From Apostichopus japonicus (lineage: Eukaryota > Echinodermata > Holothuroidea > Aspidochirotida > Stichopodidae), in assembly GCF_037975245.1 (NCBI RefSeq), contig NC_092575.1:20785841-20849840 (forward strand): 64,000 nucleotides of DNA. Direction: 5' to 3'. Positions 9,601 through 39,815 of the stretch are shown piece after piece. The number at the start of each line of letters is the position of its first letter. Positions within the stretch are counted from its first letter, which is position 1. A program made the position numbers and the translations under genes. The notes under the pieces are model-generated. The model was not told the DNA's origin. It saw only the letters and a program-made list of their open reading frames with translations, and made no database searches.

Positions 9601-12600
9601 CCACTTAGACTCTGTCTGTGTAGCGCGTATTTATTCACTGTTTGTGTAGCCTATTTAGTCACTGATTGTGTAGCTCATGTAATCACTGTTTGTGTAGCCT
9701 ATTTGGGTACTGTCTGTGTAGCCCATTGACTAAGTCTTTGCCTGTCACTGAGTGACCTGACACTTTGATTAACTTTGAGTCAGAGTAATGTATCGTGATG
9801 TGTTGTATAATCTGCATGTGGTTTAGACAGTGAGTTTTGGAAGTAACGATCCAACTTTTGAATACGGCTTTTTGCCCCAGTTATGTGATATTCTGCTGTT
9901 CTGTGTATATATTTACTTCATTGCATTGTGAAAAAAAGGCAACCTTTAACAACAACTCATAATTGGATACATGTATGTCATTTTGTTGAACAAAGTCTGT
10001 GGAAAGGTTTCATACAGGTGTGGTAAAAATTCTTTTAAAAGACCAACTCATATTGTTTTAACCGTGTTATTCACTTCTCATCTGCTCCTCCTATTGTTTT
10101 AACAGTGTTATTAATTTCTCATCTGCTCCTCATATTGTTTTAACTGTGTTTATTTACTTCTCAGGCATCCCGATGTTGATAATCATAGATGAATATGGTA
10201 AGGTGATCACCAGTCAGGGAAGGGCCGCGGTCACATCGGACAAGGAAGGAAAGGTAAGTGCACTTGTCCTGACAACTTTATTTCTGAAGAAAAAACATTT
10301 GAGGGCATTTTCTTAACCTGAGGAGTTTCAAAACCTCTCCTAGCCAAAAATGTGTTTGTTTCCTTCAAAAATTTCCTTGCATGGTTCTGCTTGTTTCGGG
10401 GAATAATTTTGTCGGCATAAACACACCAAAATGTAACACCAACATGGGTAAACTTGCACATGAGTTTTATCGTGGATCAGTATTTACACCAAGACCTATT
10501 AATTAATATTGTCTGCATAGTTGGATATAAAAATAAATTTGTTGTTTAACTTGCCGTTGCAAGATACTAATGATAAATTAGTCCCTGTGTTTGTGTAACG
10601 TCATAGCATATCCTCTCTATTAACTTAATTTTTGACCTAAAGAAACTGTAATTTTAATGATTTTCATTTCTGTTTGGTAGGATTTTCCATGGAAGCCTAA
10701 GCCTGTCGAACTGCTGACCGAAATGAATGTGAAAACAGTGAACTCTGAACCGTGTCTGGTGTTCTTCGCGGGTGAGTATCATGTTAATGTGTTTGACAGG
10801 TTATCGTTGACCGGGATAATATCGTTGTAAAGCGCATAGAAATGCATTTGCATATAGTTGCGCTCTATAAATGAATATATTATTATTATTATTATTAATC
10901 AGACTTACGTAGAGTAAGAAGAAAAAGCTTTGGAGTGGGTAACTAAACTGGATAGTTCTGGATAATACATTTCTTTGGTTTTTTCTTTTTCATTTTTTTC
11001 TTTTTTGTCATTACGTATATGATCATTCTTTAAATTGTATAATGTTATCTTATGTAACGTAAGTACAGTTACATGGTTTATTTGTGTGTGCAACCTTTGT
11101 TTTATTGCATGTATTGTTCATTATTTTTTTCTTTCCTTATTGTCTTAGTACGGGGGTCTGCTTCGTAAGAGCCTCGGCTTTCTCAGACCTCCTCCACTTG
11201 TCACATACATTTTCTTCTATTATTGTGTAATATATTTTGAATGTGGAAACAAATGACATCCAGTGTCAAATCTCTCAGCTTAGAAATAAATTTTAAAAAA
11301 CATAGTTCCCAGGAAATACCAAACAGGTGTTGTAAGATACTCAATTTGCTAATTACACCAACCTTGGTGTTGCATTTTACACCACCCTTCACCATCTGTC
11401 ATGATTTTCTTAGTGTCCAGCTACCATATCTTTGATTCTGAAATTATGCAACGGTCCATTTGTCCAATCCCAAATGTTAAAACACTGGACATATTTGACA
11501 CTTACTCAACTGGAATCCCAAACAAGTCAAAGAAAAGCCAGCTGCCTTTTGCAGTAGAGTTGTTATATATATATATAGCTACCGCATAGAATGCTCCGCC
11601 CCATTAACAGACTGAAAACCCAGAAACGGGGCTCATTTGCAAATTCGGAAAAGTAATCCGGAACAGGTCAAAGAGACTGACCCTGTTTTCTTGTCGCTCT
11701 GGCCCAGTGGCGGAGCGTCCATACAGTCAGGGGGGCGGATGCCCCCCCTGACGGACTCAAATGGACTGCTGGCGCCCTTTTCAGCTATTCACCACTTTCT
11801 ACTTATTCGCCATTATTTACTTTTTTATTGCGCTCTCATCTACCTATTGACATTTGTCACATTTTGTTGGCGATGACACCTATTTATTCTTCGTTTATCT
11901 GCAAATTAGCAAGGCCCGGAAAGGGTCATTTCCGGTGATACAGGGAGTATCTTTACTCAAAAAATTTCTGTACGCTCTGCGCCAACCTGTGGTGGTGCTC
12001 CGCTTAGATAAAGTCGAAAGCACCCATACAGACCATTCTCGCCCCCTCTGACCAATACCCCTAAGCTCCGCCACTGCGTGAAACCACTTAGTTATCTTGG
12101 GTTGAATGAAACTCCTCTCATGCTAAGATTTCTCTTTTCATCACGATGTGGCTTTCCAATTTTAATACTTATTTTTTTATTAATCACAGAGTTATGGGTA
12201 CCGCAAATGGTCAGAGATTTACAGTTGTATAAAAAGTAACCATCTAACCGGTACCGTTAAGTATATTCAGGGACGTAGCCAGGGAGGAGCAATGGCAGCG
12301 ATCGCCCCCCCCCCCCCCTCAACCATTTTGAGAACCCTGAAAAAATAAAATTGAACTAAAAGCAGGAAATATCATTAAAGCCCTCTTTTCAGGTTGAAAG
12401 AAGCTACACGACCCTTGTTTCCCCTAAATGTTTCCCCTAAAAGTTCGTCTGCTATACGAAATACAACACTGTTATTATAGTTTATTTCCTGCAACGTGGG
12501 AGGCAATTTGAGCAAAACTTTTCTTTGTTCATCATGGCGCTACATGAAGTGTAATAACGCTCCTCTGGGGAGGCGGGGGGGGGGGAGTGCCCCTTTTAAA

Positions 12601-15600
12601 TTCTGAGAGTACGAGAGTGCGATATATATATATGTATATAGCGTCATACTTTCATTGTGTCACATTTTGTGGTGGTGTCCCCCTCCCCTTTGGAATTTTT
12701 TTTGCATTTCCAGGTGGCTTCAGATGCAATTTGGTGCAATATTGCACACCTCAACCCACCCACTCCATTTTGTACATAATGTTGCATTTTCACGTGGCCT
12801 TAGATGCAATTTGGTGCTCCAAATGAGATTTTTTTCTCTTTGGAAATGAAAAAGGGGTTTCCTGACTTGCGAAGCGGGGCGGAATGATACTTCCGCCCCT
12901 CGATATTTTTCACTGGGGGGGGCTGGTGCCCCCCAGCCCCCCGGTTGCTATGCCCTTTAGTTATTCCATTTTTTCTAGCTCTCGCTTTTGAGCATAAAAT
13001 ATTTCTTTAACTCTGTTGTAGAGTCTTACGTCAAACCTCATAAGTCTTCCTACATCTTTGTCTTCCAAGAGAGCACGTTTAGCTTCGGCTTTCAGTTGAT
13101 TCTGCGCAGAAATATTCAGCCCTTCATATGAACCCCTCAACACGTGTACGTCTCCACATGATTCTGTGAATGTTAGATTATAAGCTTTTTGTAGCATCTT
13201 TAGTGTAGTCTGTAATTCGTCCTGCAAGCCTACCACAGATAAATACCGATCCAGGTGTTCCAAAACTCCATCTACTACGGACTTTTCATCTAACATCTCA
13301 GTCAGTAATTTCCTATTGCCTAGCAATCGGCAACTGCGTTCTCCGCTGGCTCTTTCGGTGATTTCATATCTGTTGGTCAAGGCTTGCTTTGTAACAGAAC
13401 CTAAGTATTTAACCCAGTCAGTAATTGAAAGAAGTGTGGCTTTCTTGGAGATTCGGTTGGAATGATTATGTTTCCGTGCAATATCTCTGCTGAAGAAATA
13501 ACGTGAAACAACTCGATCGTATGGTTCACGAAAGATTGCGAAGGTTGAACATTTCCTCGTGGTAATTTTGTCGTGAATAAAATCACACAAACCCAGCGTG
13601 TTGTGCCCTCTTAAAATCGGTCTGGTTGAGCTACTTACGAAGACTCCTTTTTTCGATAGCATGTCTAATTGTGTTCTGCAGCCACCTGTATAGTGAATAT
13701 CGAACTCCGAATCGCCATTTTTCTTGTACATTTTTCCCATACAGCTTTCGATACTTGTACCGCCTGATTTCTGAACATGCCAAAAGTTAATGATTGCGTC
13801 TGAGTAATATTGGCGCTGTTCTGGGTAGAGAAAGTAGTTTGGTAGGTTATGGCAACTGTTCAACTGATCATGGATTTGATGGCAGTCGTTGGAGAGCTTC
13901 GTCGTACTAGAAAGTATTTCTGTAATCCTATAAAGATTCAGAGAAAAAAAAGGAACTAACAAATTAAAAAGCCCTTTGATAATGTTTTCTGAAAACTGGG
14001 GACTCCGATAATAGTTCATTGTTCAACTTGCTTTTAGGCCGACTTCTCCCAATCAGAACCCGATGTATAGATATCATACCACAGATAATTGCTCCCACTG
14101 ACTTACACACTAAACACGTCACTTTCCAAGGCCGATAGAGCATAGATAGAAGTTTCAACTGACATGTCCTACCCCCTCCCCTCCCCACCCCATATGATAG
14201 TTAATGGCTTGGGCTATCACAAAACATTCCACTTTTGCCACAATGACAGTTTATCATAGTGCTCACCCAACCCATCTGCCAGTTATCGCTGCAGAATCGT
14301 CTTGTTTCACTCAAGATTTTCTAAAATACCTTAAATCACATTCAATCCTCCAGATTTGTAGACCATCAGTAGTTTATTTCCGATGATCGTCTTCAACTTC
14401 CAAGCATCAAAAGAATTGTGATGACTCAAAAAATTTAAAAAAAAAAGAAAAAATATTGTTGGTCATTTTAGGGCTAATTGTGATGTTATACATATATATA
14501 ATCTTAATTAGAACTTGTGAACCTCTTGTATGGTAGGAAATGTCAGTTTTCGAATGAGAGTATTAGGGCATATGCCAATCAAATTCGATAATGGTCGATT
14601 TCAGGAATTTTGGCATGCTATTCGCACCATACTGCACCAAAGAACCCATTTCTCCCCACCAGGAATTCAGAGATACAATGCCGTCCTCAATTTTTAATGT
14701 CCTCGACTTGTTTAAACAATATATGGAGCTCCCGGTCAGTTTATTTCATAACGAGAATTCTCAAGGTATATCCAAAACCTAAAACCCATATATTCCCGCT
14801 GTGGTAGTTGCCTGGAAACTGGGTTACATATTACTTTAATTCAACACCGTTGATATTTCCTATGGAATTTCCGACACTGCTAGTGCAGATACCGTTGTCA
14901 GGCTGGGGCTCGGTAATAGTGCCCCCCCATGCTGTCTACTGTGTACACCCCCACCCTCCCCTCCCCATTTGGGGCCACCATCAATGATGAGTACAAAACC
15001 TTCACCACAAGTTATAAGAAACAGATAATTGTATACCTTCTAAACTATTTTGCCCCTCCCCCTGATAGGGTAACTCATACCTACCCGCCGTTACATTAGG
15101 TATCGTGATCAGGACTGACTAGCGCAATTGTTTGTAACGGTTGCAACTTAGTGATTCATGCTACACCCCATGCCCGCCCACCAACCCACCCCCGCCCATC
15201 TAATTCAGTAAGTACTTACCGACTATTATTTCTCCCTATTTTCGGCGGCAGAACCTGGTCGTCTCTTGTATCAACGGTAGAGTCGTCACGGTGTTTTAAA
15301 AAGGAGGGCATCGGCAGCATGTTTAAAACATTACTGAAGAAAAAGCCAATGACTAACAGAAGTAAATGTTCTTTACGTAATTTTGGCAGCGTCATTTTGT
15401 ATATTTCGATCAACTTGACTTGCTCTTCTTCTTCTTCTTCTTCTTCTTCTTCTTCTTCTTCTTCTTCTTCTTCTTCTTCTTCTTCTTCTTCTTCTCAATT
15501 GACGACTTCAGCTACAGTACACAACTGTCACCACATTTATATGCTTCTGTACTGCTTATACGTTGTTAACATATAACAGTATTAGTGAGGGCTAAGTACA

Positions 15601-15686
15601 GAACTTATGCCAGGAGTGCCAGCTTCGAGGATGAAATGATCGATGAAATGCATGAATGATTATAGCCTTTGTTAAATTGTCTCGAC

Positions 15687-15742
<56 letters not shown>

Positions 15743-15779
15743 CTATATATATATATATATATCTATATATATATATATC

Positions 15780-15838
<59 letters not shown>

Positions 15839-18800
15839 TATAGGCCATGCATTGTTACTGTTTTCCCATCATCGCTGTATACACATGCCACAAGTTAGAT
15901 ATTCTAACGAGATTGGCAAAAGAGAAGGAAGTATATACTACAGCAGGATTGGCTCATCATTGGCCTTTAATTAGTGTGAACAAAGACATGACATGGGGGG
16001 GGGGCTAAAGTGTTCCTCATTTCCACATGATAGGTAACTTTATGTGCATCCTTTGACCTGTTACTTTTTATAATAAAATGACACAAAAGGAACACAATTC
16101 TCCCCACCCCCCCCACATATTCACTAACTCAGGGGCGGATCCAGGATTTTAATAATGAGGGGTTGCTGTGGTCCTGAGGTCGTTGAAACCGATTGCAATG
16201 TAGGAGAGTGGGGCCCGCCCTCAAAAACAAAAATTGTATACATGAAATGGTGACTCATAGTTAGGCTATAATTAGGTCTATAAATACATAGTTTAACACT
16301 AAGGTTTTTGCTAATATCTATGTGTGTGTTTAGGTGGGTGGCACACTCATAGATACAAAAAAGAGTTTAATTTATGTATTATCTCTTAATTTATGGTTGA
16401 TGGACCTGTACTTCAACCCAAGCGGAATGGAATACTAGGTCTCGGTCGATTCGGTGCACTGTTTGTATCTCCTCTGACTGTAGAATGTTAATTAAAGGAA
16501 ACAATTAAGAAGAAAATTACAGGAAGGGAGAGTTATTCTCTCCAATTTATATATTTCTTATATTATTATATATATTTCAATAACGATATCAATACATAGT
16601 TTTTTAACGATACCATAGTCGTAAAATCAGTGGCGGAGCTAGGGGTATTGGTCGGGGTGGGGGCAAGAATGGTCTGTAGGGGCGCTTTCGACACTATTTA
16701 AGTTTAACCATTGAAAACACATTGCAAATTCTTCTTTCAGTAGGTGCCAGTGGGGGAGCTAGGGGTATTGGTCAGGGGGGGGAGAATAGTCTGTAGGGGC
16801 GCTTTCGACACAATCTAAGCGGAGCGCCACCACAGGTTGGCGCGGAGCGTACATACATTTTTTGAGTAAAGATACTCCCTAGGTCGCCGGAAATGAGCCT
16901 TTCTAGGCCTTGCTAATTTGAAGATAAACGAAGAATAAATAGGTGTCATCACCAACAAAATGTGACAAATGTCAATAGGTAGTTGAGAGCGCAATAAAAA
17001 AGTCAATAATCACGAATAAGTAAAAAGTGGTAAAAAGCTGAAAAGGGCGTCAGCAGTCCATTTGAGTCCGTCAGGGGGGGGGGCATCTGCCCCTCTGACT
17101 GTATGGACGCTCCGCCACTGCATCACACCCTTATTGGGGGGCCTCAGCATGAGGTTTAGTCATGTGTTGGACCAAAGTTACAGCTTCGTTTCTAATCATT
17201 TTTTGCATAACTTACTGACAGATGTTAAGACGTAAGTTATACTACCATGACTGTAGTGTTATAAAGCTTGCAGAGTTAACTTAGGATCCTGAATTATCTT
17301 CTCAAGGGACCTAGGCTAGGGTTATGGACACGCAGGGTTTCGATTTTACCAACTGCAAAAGAGGTAGAGGTCTATACTCACTGAATCAGCAACGTGAAAC
17401 TCATGCTGAATGTCTTGATCCAACTCAATTCTCTCTAAAAGTTTATCCACACTAACACTAATAAGATGAACAGCACAGTGGCGGAGCGTCCATATAGTCA
17501 GGGGGCGAATGCCCCCCCCACCCTGACGGGCTTAATTTTACCACTTTTTACTTATCCGCGATTATTGACTTTTTTATTGCGCTCTCATCTACCTATTGAC
17601 ATTTGTCACAGTTTGTTGGTGTAATTTTCTGTCAAAATGCTCTAACGGCTATTTATTGTTCGTTTATCTGCAAATTAGAAAGGCCTGGTAAAGGGTCATT
17701 TGCGGCGATCTAGGGAGTATCTTTGCTCAAAAAATTCTGTACACTCCGCGTCAACCTGTGGTGGCGCTCCGCTTAGATAGTGTCAAAAGCGCCCCTACAG
17801 ACCATTCTCGCCCCCTCTGACCAAAATCCCTAGCTCCGCCACTGCTCTGGCCTATAGGTTGGAAGCGATCTTCCAGTGGCAGAAGTTGTAACAGTTATCT
17901 TAAAAGGAGAAAAAGATTCCTTAAAATAAATTGAAAGTCTCATGTTAGCATGATGTCCCTAACTGGAGGTTTGGTTGATTGAGTGGCACCTATTTGTGAC
18001 TGACTAACCCTACCATAATCTCCATCTTGTCATTGTGGTAGACTTGACTTTCCCGTTATAAACTTCTTGTCGATTACCCTCCAAAGCGTGATAGATTTGG
18101 GATGTTTGCTCAGCTGTCCCCGAATTATTTTGTCAAATTGCAACTTTTTTTTTTTGGTATTAATATTATCTTCTTATGTGGATAAAATATTTGACTATTA
18201 AGAAAACTCAAAGCATTCTCAGACCAATTGTTGTGATGACATCATTTCACCCCCGTTGTTGCCAGATACAGTCACAAAATATCACCAAAGGTGAAAAATG
18301 TGTATCTTGGCCGTCCAAAAAGATGCTGCCAGGATGTGGCTTTCAGCTAAAGATGGAGCAGAAAATATCCAGCAAATTTGTTTCGCAATCCACTTCAGCT
18401 ACAGGTATAACCTATTGAATTCATACAGAGTGACTCTAACCATTAGCATGACACAACCTCATCCAATCATGGCCATTTTCTCCCTTTCTTTTAATGATGA
18501 TGAACACTTATTCTTCCATTTAACGTCATTGAGTGTACTCATCTGTGTGTTAATGCATATATGTTGTACAAAGCCGTCACAAGAGCTTTTCTGTTTACTT
18601 TCATCAGAACTAAACGAAGGAGAAGAAGATGCCAATGCTCTGGCGGCAGCAGCCGTCATGCAACCGGTGGCCGAAGCTGTATGGGAAGCCGCTAAGGCCA
18701 AAAAGGAAGATCCTCCGCTCAGGTTCATGGTCGGCGGAGATGTAAGTAATGAAGTTATCCGTCTGCAACCAGATTTATTGAAGAGGGTCCCTGTTTTTAG

Positions 18801-22990: not shown

Positions 22991-24322
22991 CAGGCCCATA
23001 GCCAGCTTTTACCTGGGTGGGGGGGGGGGTTCGTCATGCGTGGTAGGACTATCTAAGCGGAGCGCCACCATTGGTTGGCGTGGAGCGTACAAGAAAATTT
23101 TCAGCTTTTCGAACCCCCCAGATGGCCAGAAACGGCACTTCCCGAGTGTTTCAAGCAAGAAGAAGTTCAGCCCCCATTTCGAAATTCTCCCCGCTTCTTG
23201 GAACACTTGACAAATATTGGGGGGCTGAACATACCTTCAGCCCCCCACTTTTTCATCGCTGCCACTGGAGTTCGGCATTTTCATGGAGTCAAACTGGAGG
23301 GCGCCCCAGTATTTATATTTTTAATTAACTATCCTTGGTGTTGAGTTCTAGGCATAGACCCCACATCATACCCTTACCCTACCCTAAACTGTAATCCTAA
23401 TTATATACTAAAGCTAAACCTATCTGCTCAAGCCTAGGTATCCCTTAAAAAGAAGAGGTGAGACCTGAATAAACCCCAAGTTCCTTACTTCATCGCTAGA
23501 CGACCTAACCCTAGTGATATCTCATCAGGTGTATCTGCTGTGATCCATCCCATAGTCTACCACACCAGACGCCGCGCTGTGAAACTGGAGTCGAGAAAGA
23601 TTTGAACTTTTACGGCGCTGTGAATATTTTGCGGCGCTTTAAAAATCAATTAGCCAATCACAGAGACTCATATATTGGCCCATATGGAATAAATAACTTA
23701 AATCTAGATGGAAGTGGTGTTAAAGAAGAGAAATATAGCAAAATGAGTACTTGTTGGTGCAGACACACATACACAGTGAAATTGATAGACATTAGCAACC
23801 ATCATGCTTGTGGTGTCTCTATTACTACTATTGTGAAGTTGAAATACAAGGAAACACAGAGATATTTTAGACTGTCTCTTCAGTAGTAGCAAGTCCGAAA
23901 GAGAGTATGCAAAAACATATTTGCATATTTCTAACTGCTATAGGGTCCAATATCTCGGTCTGCCATGTTTCGAAGCTTGAAATCACGGCGCCGCGTTCAG
24001 TGTGGACACCCCTCACCGCGCTGCGCCGAACTTTGCATCACTGCAAAGTTCGGCGCAGCGCGGCGCCAGGTGTGGATGTCCCTTTACATCAAAGTTTCCG
24101 TGTTGCCTTCAGCTGAGCGTGTGTAGGTCAATATTGTACTCCACGGTCCTGGTGGCACCCATTGTCGTTGAAAAGTGATTATACGAGCTGTATATTTAAA
24201 TATGCATTTTCGTGTAAAAAATGACAATTTGCCCTGGAAAAAACCAAAACTCCATTGACAAAAAAATTGGTCTGAGGGGGGGGTTTGTCCAAACCCCCTG
24301 AACCCCCATGGCTACGGGCCTG
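22991..24322. mobile_element. Inner TIR element nested in 22797-24687
   Basis: It begins CAGGCCCATAGCCAG and ends TGGCTACGGGCCTG, imperfect 14-bp inverted repeats next to poly-G and poly-C. The module GCGCCACCATTGGTTGGCG is at about 23057, some 65 bp from the left end. A 22-bp-arm hairpin lies at 24016-24063. The flanks show no exact target-site duplication. Open frames here do not resemble proteins. Confidence 0.55.
24016..24063. repeat. Perfect 22-bp-arm hairpin
   Basis: The 22 bases at 24016-24037 (starting CCGCGCTGCG and ending ACTTTGCA) are repeated in perfect inverted form at 24042-24063 around a 4-base loop, TCAC. The arms are GC-rich against an AT-rich background. Confidence 0.85.
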
Positions 24323-26613
24323 ATTTATTCACAGTTGTTAAATATAGGACGGAAATTGCATTTGCGGCAGTCTATATTTGTTTTCTGGAAGAGGACCCCA
24401 GACCCATCGTATACAAAAGTCTACTTGGATTATTTTTCCCCTGATTTTTTTTTCTGCCGATGCCCATGTATTTCCCCAAACTAAATTTTCTAAGCCATGA
24501 GATCTAAAATTTAAGGTTTGGGAGCATCTTTGGGTCTGGGAAGTGTTATTTCCTGCGATCTGGGAGGTATATATTTGCCCAAAAATTTCTTGTACGCTAC
24601 GCGGCACCCATCGTCGCGCTCCACTTAGATAGTGTCAGAGAACAGACACGCGTCCCCACCATTATCCAAGACTGATCTGCGCCCATGCCTGCCTATAATC
24701 TGAAACTTGTGAGCTTGGAAAGATCACGTACTACGCAGCCTGGCTGCAGTATGACACAAACAATCAAAAACTACAGAACACGAGGATCATTGGTTTCATT
24801 ATTTTTCTTTCAAGTAGCTTAATGTCTCACATGACAACCAAAAATACACCAGACCTTCAGAGCCAAACGGGATACCCTTTAGGGATATACCCCTCAACCC
24901 TTAGATAGGGGATTCCCCTTTAGACCACATATTCAAGCGATAACAGATATGGCTATTATAAGTGTTAAAGTAAACGTCCAATGAAACTCACATAATGATC
25001 ACATGCTCACACATCAATAGGTATTTTCACTGTCACCCAACAAACACAGTTGTCACCAATACATACAACTGCAATGCAACCTCAATTTCTGCATTTTTCT
25101 GCATTCTCATTTTAGCATTCTCAAAAGGTGACAAAATTTCACATTTATTGCTATGAAAGTTCACAACTGCGATAAATGCATTAACAAACAAGTTTATAAA
25201 TATAATCTGAACGATAAATCATAACAAAATAGCATTCTGTAAATTTATCTCACGCTTCACACTGTCCAAGTTAGGTAATAGTCTTACAATACCAGGGTAC
25301 AACTGCTGTACTGGGGGAGAGGGGGGAGGGGGGGGCTGACATGTGTAGTCCAAGGGACGGGTGTAAAAGGGAGGAATAGCGACTCTGCTATAGTGTGCAA
25401 TTTTTAAAACAGTGTTGAAGATTTGTTTTATTGTTTAGATTGTACCACACACATTTAACGATTTATGTACTGTACACTATATGTGTAATATTGTCTACCA
25501 GTGGGTAGAGTGGTTGGTTGGGGAGAGGGGTGGAGGACTTTACTATACTTGACTTCACCCCTGCACAACACCCTTTCGATACCCCTCAATTAATCTAAGA
25601 GATCTAATTCATTGAAGCCCAGTTGGCTGCTCCTAATTAACAAGCTATTTAGTTCAATGCAGAAAATTCTGTGTCCTACAAAAGTGTGTCTTTTTTTTTA
25701 TTTTATTTTTATTTTATTTTTCTGGGAATAATTAATGCAGTATCGTAATCGTAATTTGCTATGCAAATATGACCGCAATGCTACACAAATCCACACATGT
25801 GTAGCAGTTATTGCACACAAAACCGTAGTGCTTTCAGTAAGTTCTAAGAAACATTTTTGCTATGCAAAATGTAAATACTAACTTCTCTCTTCGAAGTCCC
25901 CTAACACAGACCAGATGACCATAATTTAAAACTCCTTGAAAATAATCTATAGAAGAAAAAAAAACCCTTCTCAAAGTGACACTGTCAGAGCAAATTGTCA
26001 GACTGAACTTTTTGCAACATTTTTTGACATTTACTGTTGCGTGAATTGGAATTATGGACTTCCTAGCCAATCACCAATTTACTTTTTAACACCATTGTTC
26101 CCCCCACACCCTTTTTTTTTTTGACAATGTGCTATGGAGAACAAAAGTAGTTCATAGTGTTTAAGATCAATTCATAACACACATTGGTAAATTGTACAAT
26201 ATGATTCTTAACTGCAGACAAGTTGAGTAAAAATATTCGACCCGTTCAAAAGCGAAATAGCCAACGATTATTCACGTTGGAATAAAGAGTTCCATTTCAT
26301 ATCTGGCCAAATGCAGGAGTAACAATTCTCATTTTATGTCATTTAGATGTTGAAAACACTTCTTTTAAATAAAAAATGACTTTTGTAAAAAGACGATATA
26401 TAATCAATTGAACCCTGTGTTTCGTAGAGGAAATGAATGGAAGGGAAAGATTATTTTGATTACGGGCATCTGGCAGTCGTACTTATTAACTATCAAATAG
26501 TACAGATACCTAATTAGTAAAACATGGTCAAAATACACAAACTGAAGTAGTACAGACAACAGATGAAAAATGGCTTCAGGTATAAATTAGAAATTCAGAT
26601 ACTCATACTTTGT

Positions 26614-38990: not shown

Positions 38991-39815
38991 GGGCACAACA
39001 TCAGAGGGGCACTTTCTCATTCCACAACCACCACTCATTATGCTATAAACCGATACACACCGGCCATATATACAAGGGCGGCGGAACCGGGGGGGGCACA
39101 GGGGGCACGTGCCCCCCCACTTTTCCTCAGGTTAAAAATGTGCCCTTTTTCTACATAAAAATTGAGGTGTCTCAAGTTAGCAAGAGGCCAGGGAACCAGG
39201 AAAAAACACTCGGGAAGGGCCGTTTCCGGCCATCTGAGGGGTTTGTAAAACCAAAAATTTTCTTGCACGCTCCGCGCCAACCGATGGTGGCGCTCCGCTC
39301 AGATAGTCGTGCATACAACTTTGCAAATCCTGGCTCCGCCGCTGACTTTTAAATGAATTTCTGTGGGTCAAACTCAAAGCTATTTCGAATGGAAAAAAGT
39401 TTGTTTAGATATTAACAAGAAATAAACCCTAATTCGGAAGATTCTTACATTAGTAACTAGCATGATTTCACCTCAATTTGTCTCAAAAGAAAACTTGTTC
39501 CTTGTTTCCCAATTTGCACATTGGATATTGCAGTGCTAGTATGCATATCTTCCTGGGGGGGGGGGGGGCGTTGATGGACTGATGTGTATACGCAAATAAG
39601 ATAATACAATAAGAGTTATAAAGGGTACTAAATATAAGGCTGCATCAGTCCATTCAAATTTCTGCAAAGTGCCCTTTGATGTTGGTGCCCCCCCAGATTA
39701 AAAGTGCTTCCGCCGCCCTTGCATATATATGATGTGTTAGTATGCTATCAATACTATTTATTGAGATTGGCTATTGTTAACCGTGCTCAAAAAAAGATAT
39801 GGGATGCCATTTTAG
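38990..39815. mobile_element. Old repeat split by a hAT-like insertion
   Basis: The pieces 38990-39072 and 39722-39815 join into a sequence that matches the reverse complement of about 49425-49605 (shared CATTCCACAACCACCACTC, GCTATAAACCGATACACACC, TTTATTGAGATTG and GATATGGGATGCCATTT). The second copy has no insertion, so it serves as an empty-site reference. Confidence 0.8.
39073..39721. mobile_element. hAT-like non-autonomous element with an 8-bp TSD
   Basis: 649 bp with terminal inverted repeats CAAGGGCGGCGGAA and TTCCGCCGCCCTTG, flanked by CATATATA at 39065-39072 and 39722-39729. The module GCGCCAACCGATGGTGGCGC lies at about 39276. An internal CTGGCTCCGCCGCTG at about 39330 resembles a further TIR, so the element may be composite. 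No transposase is seen. Confidence 0.85.

Follow-up and report, generated by a model that had tools for sequence, protein, structure and literature searches.

Macrotransposons formed by the maize Ac/Ds elements have reportedly been described by Huang and Dooner (2008) and by Wang et al. (2022). In maize, the ends of two linked Ac/Ds elements act as one large transposon, which generates an 8-bp target duplication, and the blocks between such ends excise and reinsert (PMC9910405). The hAT superfamily is characterized by short terminal inverted repeats (TIRs) of 10-25 bp and 8-bp target duplications (PMC3942097). P elements likewise give 8-bp duplications, and en-bloc transposition of neighbouring P copies has been proposed in Anopheles as a hypothesis for the birth of miniature inverted-repeat transposable elements (MITEs) (PMC1562414). 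MITE-bounded composite structures, termed TIME-COMPs, are described from bacterial plasmids, where a circle alternative is discussed (PMC13367494), and composite-like animal transposons, KolobokP, have been reported also in Apostichopus japonicus (PMC9587614). Here, a stretch of 64,000 nt of the A. japonicus genome (C15:20785841-20849840, the window) was analyzed, in which a complete sulfotransferase gene lies between two directly repeated copies of a short element family within an intron of the host gene NXN. An Ac/Ds-type macrotransposition probably put the gene there.

Results

Structure of the 6,140-bp unit

The unit is bounded by two full copies of the family, the left copy L and the right copy R (Table 1). 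Both start with CAGTGGCGGAGC and end with GCTCCGCCACTG, have terminal repeats of 12 bp and lie in direct orientation, and the outer pair of the unit consists of one 5' end and one 3' end. A target duplication of the family's length, CTCTGGCC, was found at the outer ends of the unit and none at the inner ends; a duplication of its own is absent at both L and R, and one is common to them across the unit. The inner flanks, CGTGAAAC (L) and GAACAGCA (R), match neither one another nor the outer flanks. CGTGAAAC and GAACAGCA are taken as the remaining halves of the presumed former target duplications of L and R, respectively. A near-match of CGTGAAAC to CGTAAAAT (6/8) and further occurrences of CGTGAAAC within the unit were taken as chance.

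The flank comparison thus confirmed what the first-pass annotation of this stretch had claimed, namely two direct element copies with identical outer 8-mers and unrelated inner flanks. Its complete two-exon sulfotransferase gene between the copies also held, as the exons read in the window are identical to the NCBI A. japonicus model P0001 (380 amino acids). According to the open-frame listing, a sulfotransferase exon is the only long open frame between L and R. The unit also contains a third full family copy, I, and a 75-bp end fragment, which the first-pass annotation did not mention. The ungapped identities were 307/343 for L and R, which are about 10% apart, and 339/370 and 312/345 for L and R, respectively, with I.

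The source locus

When the genome was searched in six frames with P0001 and all 57 candidates were scored (61 matches), one close locus emerged outside the window, C15:10854040-10856468, 85-92% identical in four pieces; the next best match was at 43%. This locus, P, is located on the same chromosome, about 9.9 Mb from the unit (matching locus C15:10842839-10858016). The gene copy at P is frameshifted by indels in each of its exons; the one in the NXN intron is intact. When 30 kb around P were compared with the window, homology covered positions 12079-12479, 12473-12640, 12957-15816, 15818-16578 and 17121-17475. The cargo, that is, the DNA between L and R, differed from P at 178 of 4,254 aligned sites (4.2%) over four segments, the most diverged of which was 17121-17475 (26/352); segment 12473-12640, 85% identical to P, was left out of this count.

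The homology between cargo and P stops with single-base precision at the inner boundaries of L and R. At the left border, the unit reads L and then CGTGAAACCACTTAG, and P reads ACATCGAAGC CATGAAACCACTTAG, unbroken; at the right border, the unit reads AAGATGAACAGCA and then R, and P reads AAGATGAACAGCA TATCATTGC. The inner 60 bp at the two borders were identical to P at 57/60 and 54/60 positions, as against 15/60 and 9/60 for the outer 60 bp of NXN, and no match to the NXN intron flanks was found in the 30 kb of P. P has no element copies at the L and R points and is contiguous across both. These exact borders and the uninterrupted P indicate that L and R were probably inserted into a P-like chromosome and that L, the gene and R were re-inserted as one unit. 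Since P lacks elements at those points, it corresponds to the donor in an element-free state and is not the chromosome that gave rise to the unit. The first-pass annotation had predicted a donor locus of the sulfotransferase with the same element copies beside it; the locus was found, and the copies were missing at the L and R points.

To the left and right of the L point, the P sequence is part of a single old repeat with 37 matches, all scored (P, the unit and 35 others at 71-82%). Among these 35 relatives, at least six continue across the L point, so that the uninterrupted order is ancestral there and L is the intruder. L differs by 1.6% (6/371) from the majority sequence of 20 copies of its subfamily, A, and R by 4.1% (15/368) from that of 20 copies of subfamily B. 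The divergence of L from its majority sequence and that of the cargo from P would fit an insertion of L after the two lineages had parted, which is not a dating; the 4.1% of R by itself neither fits nor refutes that order.

Two other origins of the block bear on the same comparison. A segment of P might have been duplicated into NXN by replication or end-joining and later trimmed or decorated by elements, in keeping with P and cargo being duplicates that are 4.2% diverged. Both breakpoints would then need to coincide with two element insertion points and to give an 8-bp duplication, and we regard this origin as highly improbable. Alternatively, reversed-ends transposition with re-replication, as in maize with Ac and fAc ends, also yields element-bounded insertions with 8-bp duplications and possibly a donor copy (PMC4270019), and the block does have one internal break, at copy I. 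A composite insertion of this kind, however, is expected to consist of joined segments that originate on the two opposite sides of the element pair, whereas the cargo keeps the order and direction of P throughout, between the L point and the R point; the absence of L and R from their insertion points in P is likewise contrary to it. This route is considered very unlikely.

Table 1. Features of the unit and of the invaded NXN intron (window positions)
Feature	Position	Strand	Basis
NXN exon upstream of the invaded intron	10681..10770	+	P0006 residues 287-316, 100%
Left target-site duplication of the unit, CTCTGGCC	11697..11704	.	flank comparison
L, full element copy of 372 bp (subfamily A), whose 5' end forms the left end of the unit	11705..12076	+	
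CGTGAAAC, inner flank of L	12077..12084	.	comparison with P, which reads CATGAAAC uninterrupted
Sulfotransferase exon 2, coding, with stop codon	12961..13927	-	P0001 mapping; Pfam Sulfotransfer_2
Sulfotransferase exon 1, coding, with GT donor; covers P0001 residues 1-58 plus two bases of residue 59	15220..15395	-	
75-bp end fragment of a family copy	16628..16702	-	next to I
I, third full family copy, inverted, without target duplication of its own	16748..17120	-	right edge falls at a homology break against P
GAACAGCA, inner flank of R	17468..17475	.	comparison with P, which reads GAACAGCA and then continues
R, full element copy of 369 bp (subfamily B), whose 3' end forms the right end of the unit	17476..17844	+	
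Right target-site duplication of the unit, CTCTGGCC	17845..17852	.	flank comparison
NXN exon downstream of the invaded intron	18604..18741	+	P0006 residues 316-361, 98%

Significance of the outer 8-mer match

Two given 8-mers of the window are identical with a chance of 4e-5, or 1.5e-4 among GC-rich 8-mers, and the figure rises to about 0.002 to 0.006 over 42 comparisons (21 flank pairs in two orientations). A scan of the window for TIR-like 12-mer pairs, with low-complexity words removed beforehand, gave 10,090 pairs, and 8/8 flanks were observed in two of them: the outer pair of L and R, and an ordinary 649-bp element at 39073-39721. From composition, 0.25 such pairs would be expected in the whole set and 0.016 among the 663 that start with CA; when partners were shuffled over the whole set, the mean number with 8/8 flanks was 0.5. 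When low-complexity words were kept, 37 of the 39 8/8 matches among 853 CA pairs were TA microsatellite. By itself, the window scan gives suggestive evidence when all pairs are counted and stronger evidence for the CA class; the weight comes from the genome data. The 649-bp element is related to the family, with a perfect 12-bp TIR, CAAGGGCGGCGG, and an 8-bp duplication, CATATATA.

Coincidence would mean that the gene was resident in the NXN intron, that L and R were inserted beside it independently and that their outer 8-mers agree by chance. The family is abundant, three or more copies lie in the block, and CTCTGGCC occurs five times in the window (both strands), which gives such an accident some room. 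Set against the one-pair chances above and against the end of cargo-P homology at both inner element edges, which is not expected from independent insertions beside a resident gene, its probability is practically negligible.

The element family

Genome searches for the family gave 3,622 (for L) and 3,081 first-look candidates, 40 of which were scored in each case; the 20 best copies from outside the window in each list (40 and 43 rows) make up the 40 sampled copies. Perfect 8-bp target duplications were observed in 26/40 of these and 7/8 matches in 7 more (33/40 with at least 7/8). Absence of a duplication is therefore exceptional in the family, and yet neither L nor R has one to itself. Among the seven misses, L037 showed 8/8 low-complexity flanks once its ends were read in a longer stretch, five copies (5/40; L016, L020, L025, L045 and L049) had readable ends without a duplication, and in L014, the sixth, one end is damaged. 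No partner copy lies within about 5 kb of L045 or L049. No strong target motif was apparent among the sampled copies.

The sampled copies are about 365-405 bp long, non-coding, TIR-bearing and of high copy number, as is typical of MITEs, and the combination of a short TIR (12 bp) with an 8-bp duplication is a hAT feature. The hAT label of the first-pass annotation was accordingly kept as likely but unproven, with the 12-bp TIR and the 8-bp duplication as its two supports. No transposase was seen for the family, whose copies are non-coding, and no search aimed at a transposase or an autonomous relative was made. When the family patterns were compared with viral and prokaryote collections, one 19-bp match in a viral contig was found without surrounding element sequence and was taken as chance; the inner 22-mer had no match in either collection. 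Within the window, an inner family segment of about 95 bp (73-89%) is common to otherwise different elements at 23047-23151, 24538-24637 and 39211-39305.

A second composite on C5

The missing half of the duplication of L016 lies 2.3 kb away, at the outer end of a partner copy. The composite at C5:4317547-4319870 (L052) consists of two direct copies (4317547-4317922 and 4319501-4319870) with TTGAGCAC on both outer sides; it was found by tracing a family copy without a duplication, not by a genome-wide count. Its interior of 1,578 bp contains no open frame over about 85 codons and is 92% identical to a stretch between two copies at C5:7641861-7644180 (L054), where the second copy lacks its 3' end (the outer end is damaged) and both inner flanks read GCTCCCAA. 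The same interior is 90-92% identical to C5:5701118-5703199 (L053), which has an element at one end only. The occurrence of GCTCCCAA at both L020 and L025 was considered as a trace of inversion and dropped, as both adjoin copies of one interior sequence. We lean slightly towards the view that pairs of this family act repeatedly as composite transposons, that one of them moved a whole working gene whose original decayed, and that L052 is a second such unit.

Subfamily markers: transposition versus recombination

Thirty marker columns were defined from the 20 copies related to L and the 20 related to R. L shows state A at 30/30 columns and R shows state B at 30/30, and I is mixed. Both states at six single-base markers were observed in 10/40 sampled copies.

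These markers bear on homologous recombination, in which a resident NXN element with CTCTGGCC flanks would have received the gene from a circle or through gap repair from L-gene-R, with the family serving as homology only. The great abundance of the family, with 3,622 first-look candidates for L, would favour such an exchange, and I, which is marker-mixed and without a duplication, may itself be a recombinant; ten sampled copies are mixed at the single-base markers. A circle model has also been proposed for directly repeated MITEs of bacterial plasmids (PMC13367494). Recombination, however, predicts L and R as reciprocal recombinants, whereas both are unmixed and opposite at all 30 columns. 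Within the positions covered by markers, neither bounding copy is a recombinant with the other. An exchange within the first 60-80 or the last 50 bp, a matching mosaic resident, or same-subfamily partners on each side would be needed. The unmixed states speak against integration of a circle and favour en-bloc transposition, the first of the two routes that the first-pass annotation had set side by side, without proving it. Recombination is regarded as unlikely.

Several points weigh against en-bloc transposition. Identical outer flanks and exact inner borders would also be given by recombination. The markers reach no further than positions 83-322 in L and 61-320 in R, and 24/30 columns fall in one indel region, which leaves about seven independent markers; as groups A and B were made up of the copies nearest L and R, the test is biased somewhat towards unmixed states. 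Flanks are shared within the sampled pairs L033/L034 and L043/L050, probably duplicates, so that the 40 copies are not all independent. About 8.4 kb of P are missing at copy I, and this gap, together with the lack of a duplication at I, means that recombination or deletion also acted in the block; 16628-17120 is probably a product of one or the other. No second close copy of the L-side outer flank of P was found among the 37 matches scored, and neither a P chromosome bearing L and R nor an excision scar is known from that L-side flank search. All evidence was drawn from the A. japonicus genome alone.

The sulfotransferase gene and NXN

P0001 scored 24.5 bits against Pfam Sulfotransfer_2 (curated cut-off 22) and is a predicted sulfotransferase of that family. 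No match to sulfotransferase exon 2 was found among PDB chains, and the predicted structure of P0001 was poor (mean predicted local distance difference test score, pLDDT, 51.6) and was not used. Three adjacent open sulfotransferase relatives (41-43%) are located at C16:12964145-12981722, and many more relatives, at 25-41%, occur genome-wide. The identity of NXN is given by P0006, which maps exon by exon and defines the invaded intron as 10771-18603. This intron measures 7,833 bp, and 1,685 bp after subtraction of the unit and one duplication. The NXN gene of Holothuria leucospilota, for which synteny with HOLleu_39229/39236 was considered, was absent from the 120 proteins listed by each of two NXN searches (of 1,390 and 2,572 matches).

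Discussion

Under Ac/Ds-type macrotransposition, a chromosome carrying the P locus would have gained R at GAACAGCA and L at CGTGAAAC, so that the sulfotransferase gene came to lie between two directly oriented copies. A transposase acting in trans would have used the 5' end of L and the 3' end of R as a pair, in place of both termini of a single element, and the block L-gene-R would have been cut out and inserted in the NXN intron, with duplication of CTCTGGCC. L and R may have been present on one P haplotype, from which the block left, with a haplotype free of L and R remaining. The present P would descend from the latter, and the move would therefore yield a second gene copy; the copy at P would have decayed later, with the moved copy staying intact. 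The matching outer 8-mers, the exact borders, the uninterrupted P with its broken gene and the unmixed markers of L and R are observed; we infer the transposase, the cut-and-paste step, the order of events and a donor allele of P that bore L and R and has since been lost.

Maize has been the subject of detailed work on transposition by the ends of two neighbouring elements; in the present case, an animal genome presents the product and the uninterrupted source, with an intact gene at the new site and a decayed one at the old. This would be a concrete route by which abundant non-coding elements relocate intron-bearing genes, and crossed target duplications with exact borders form a signature that can be counted genome-wide.

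No animal case of a complete bystander gene between two miniature elements turned up among the open-licence papers listed. KolobokP resembles the unit in outline and was set aside: in the accessible account, its interior encodes its own transposase and a nuclease and it forms a stable lineage, whereas the interior of the unit is a host gene and its two bounding copies differ by about 10%. Kolobok target duplications are TTAA. The Anopheles P case is alike in that it concerns an animal, has an 8-bp duplication and invokes macrotransposition, and differs in that neither a gene cargo nor a source locus is given in the accessible text. TIME-COMPs, as their description goes, are the nearest MITE-bounded analogue, since two miniature copies bracket and move a gene between outer direct repeats; they differ in having Tn3-family ends and 5-bp repeats and in being bacterial. 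In reversed-ends composite insertions (PMC4270019), element termini flank genomic DNA with an 8-bp duplication, as here; they fit less well because the cargo of the unit is collinear with its source and joins no opposite flanks. The likeness to the maize Ac/Ds macrotransposons, within the published description consulted, extends to every feature that could be tested. The present unit differs from them in occurring in an animal, in having non-coding miniature copies as its ends and no transposase seen between them, in carrying a complete host gene, and in being a natural event with its source sequence at hand.

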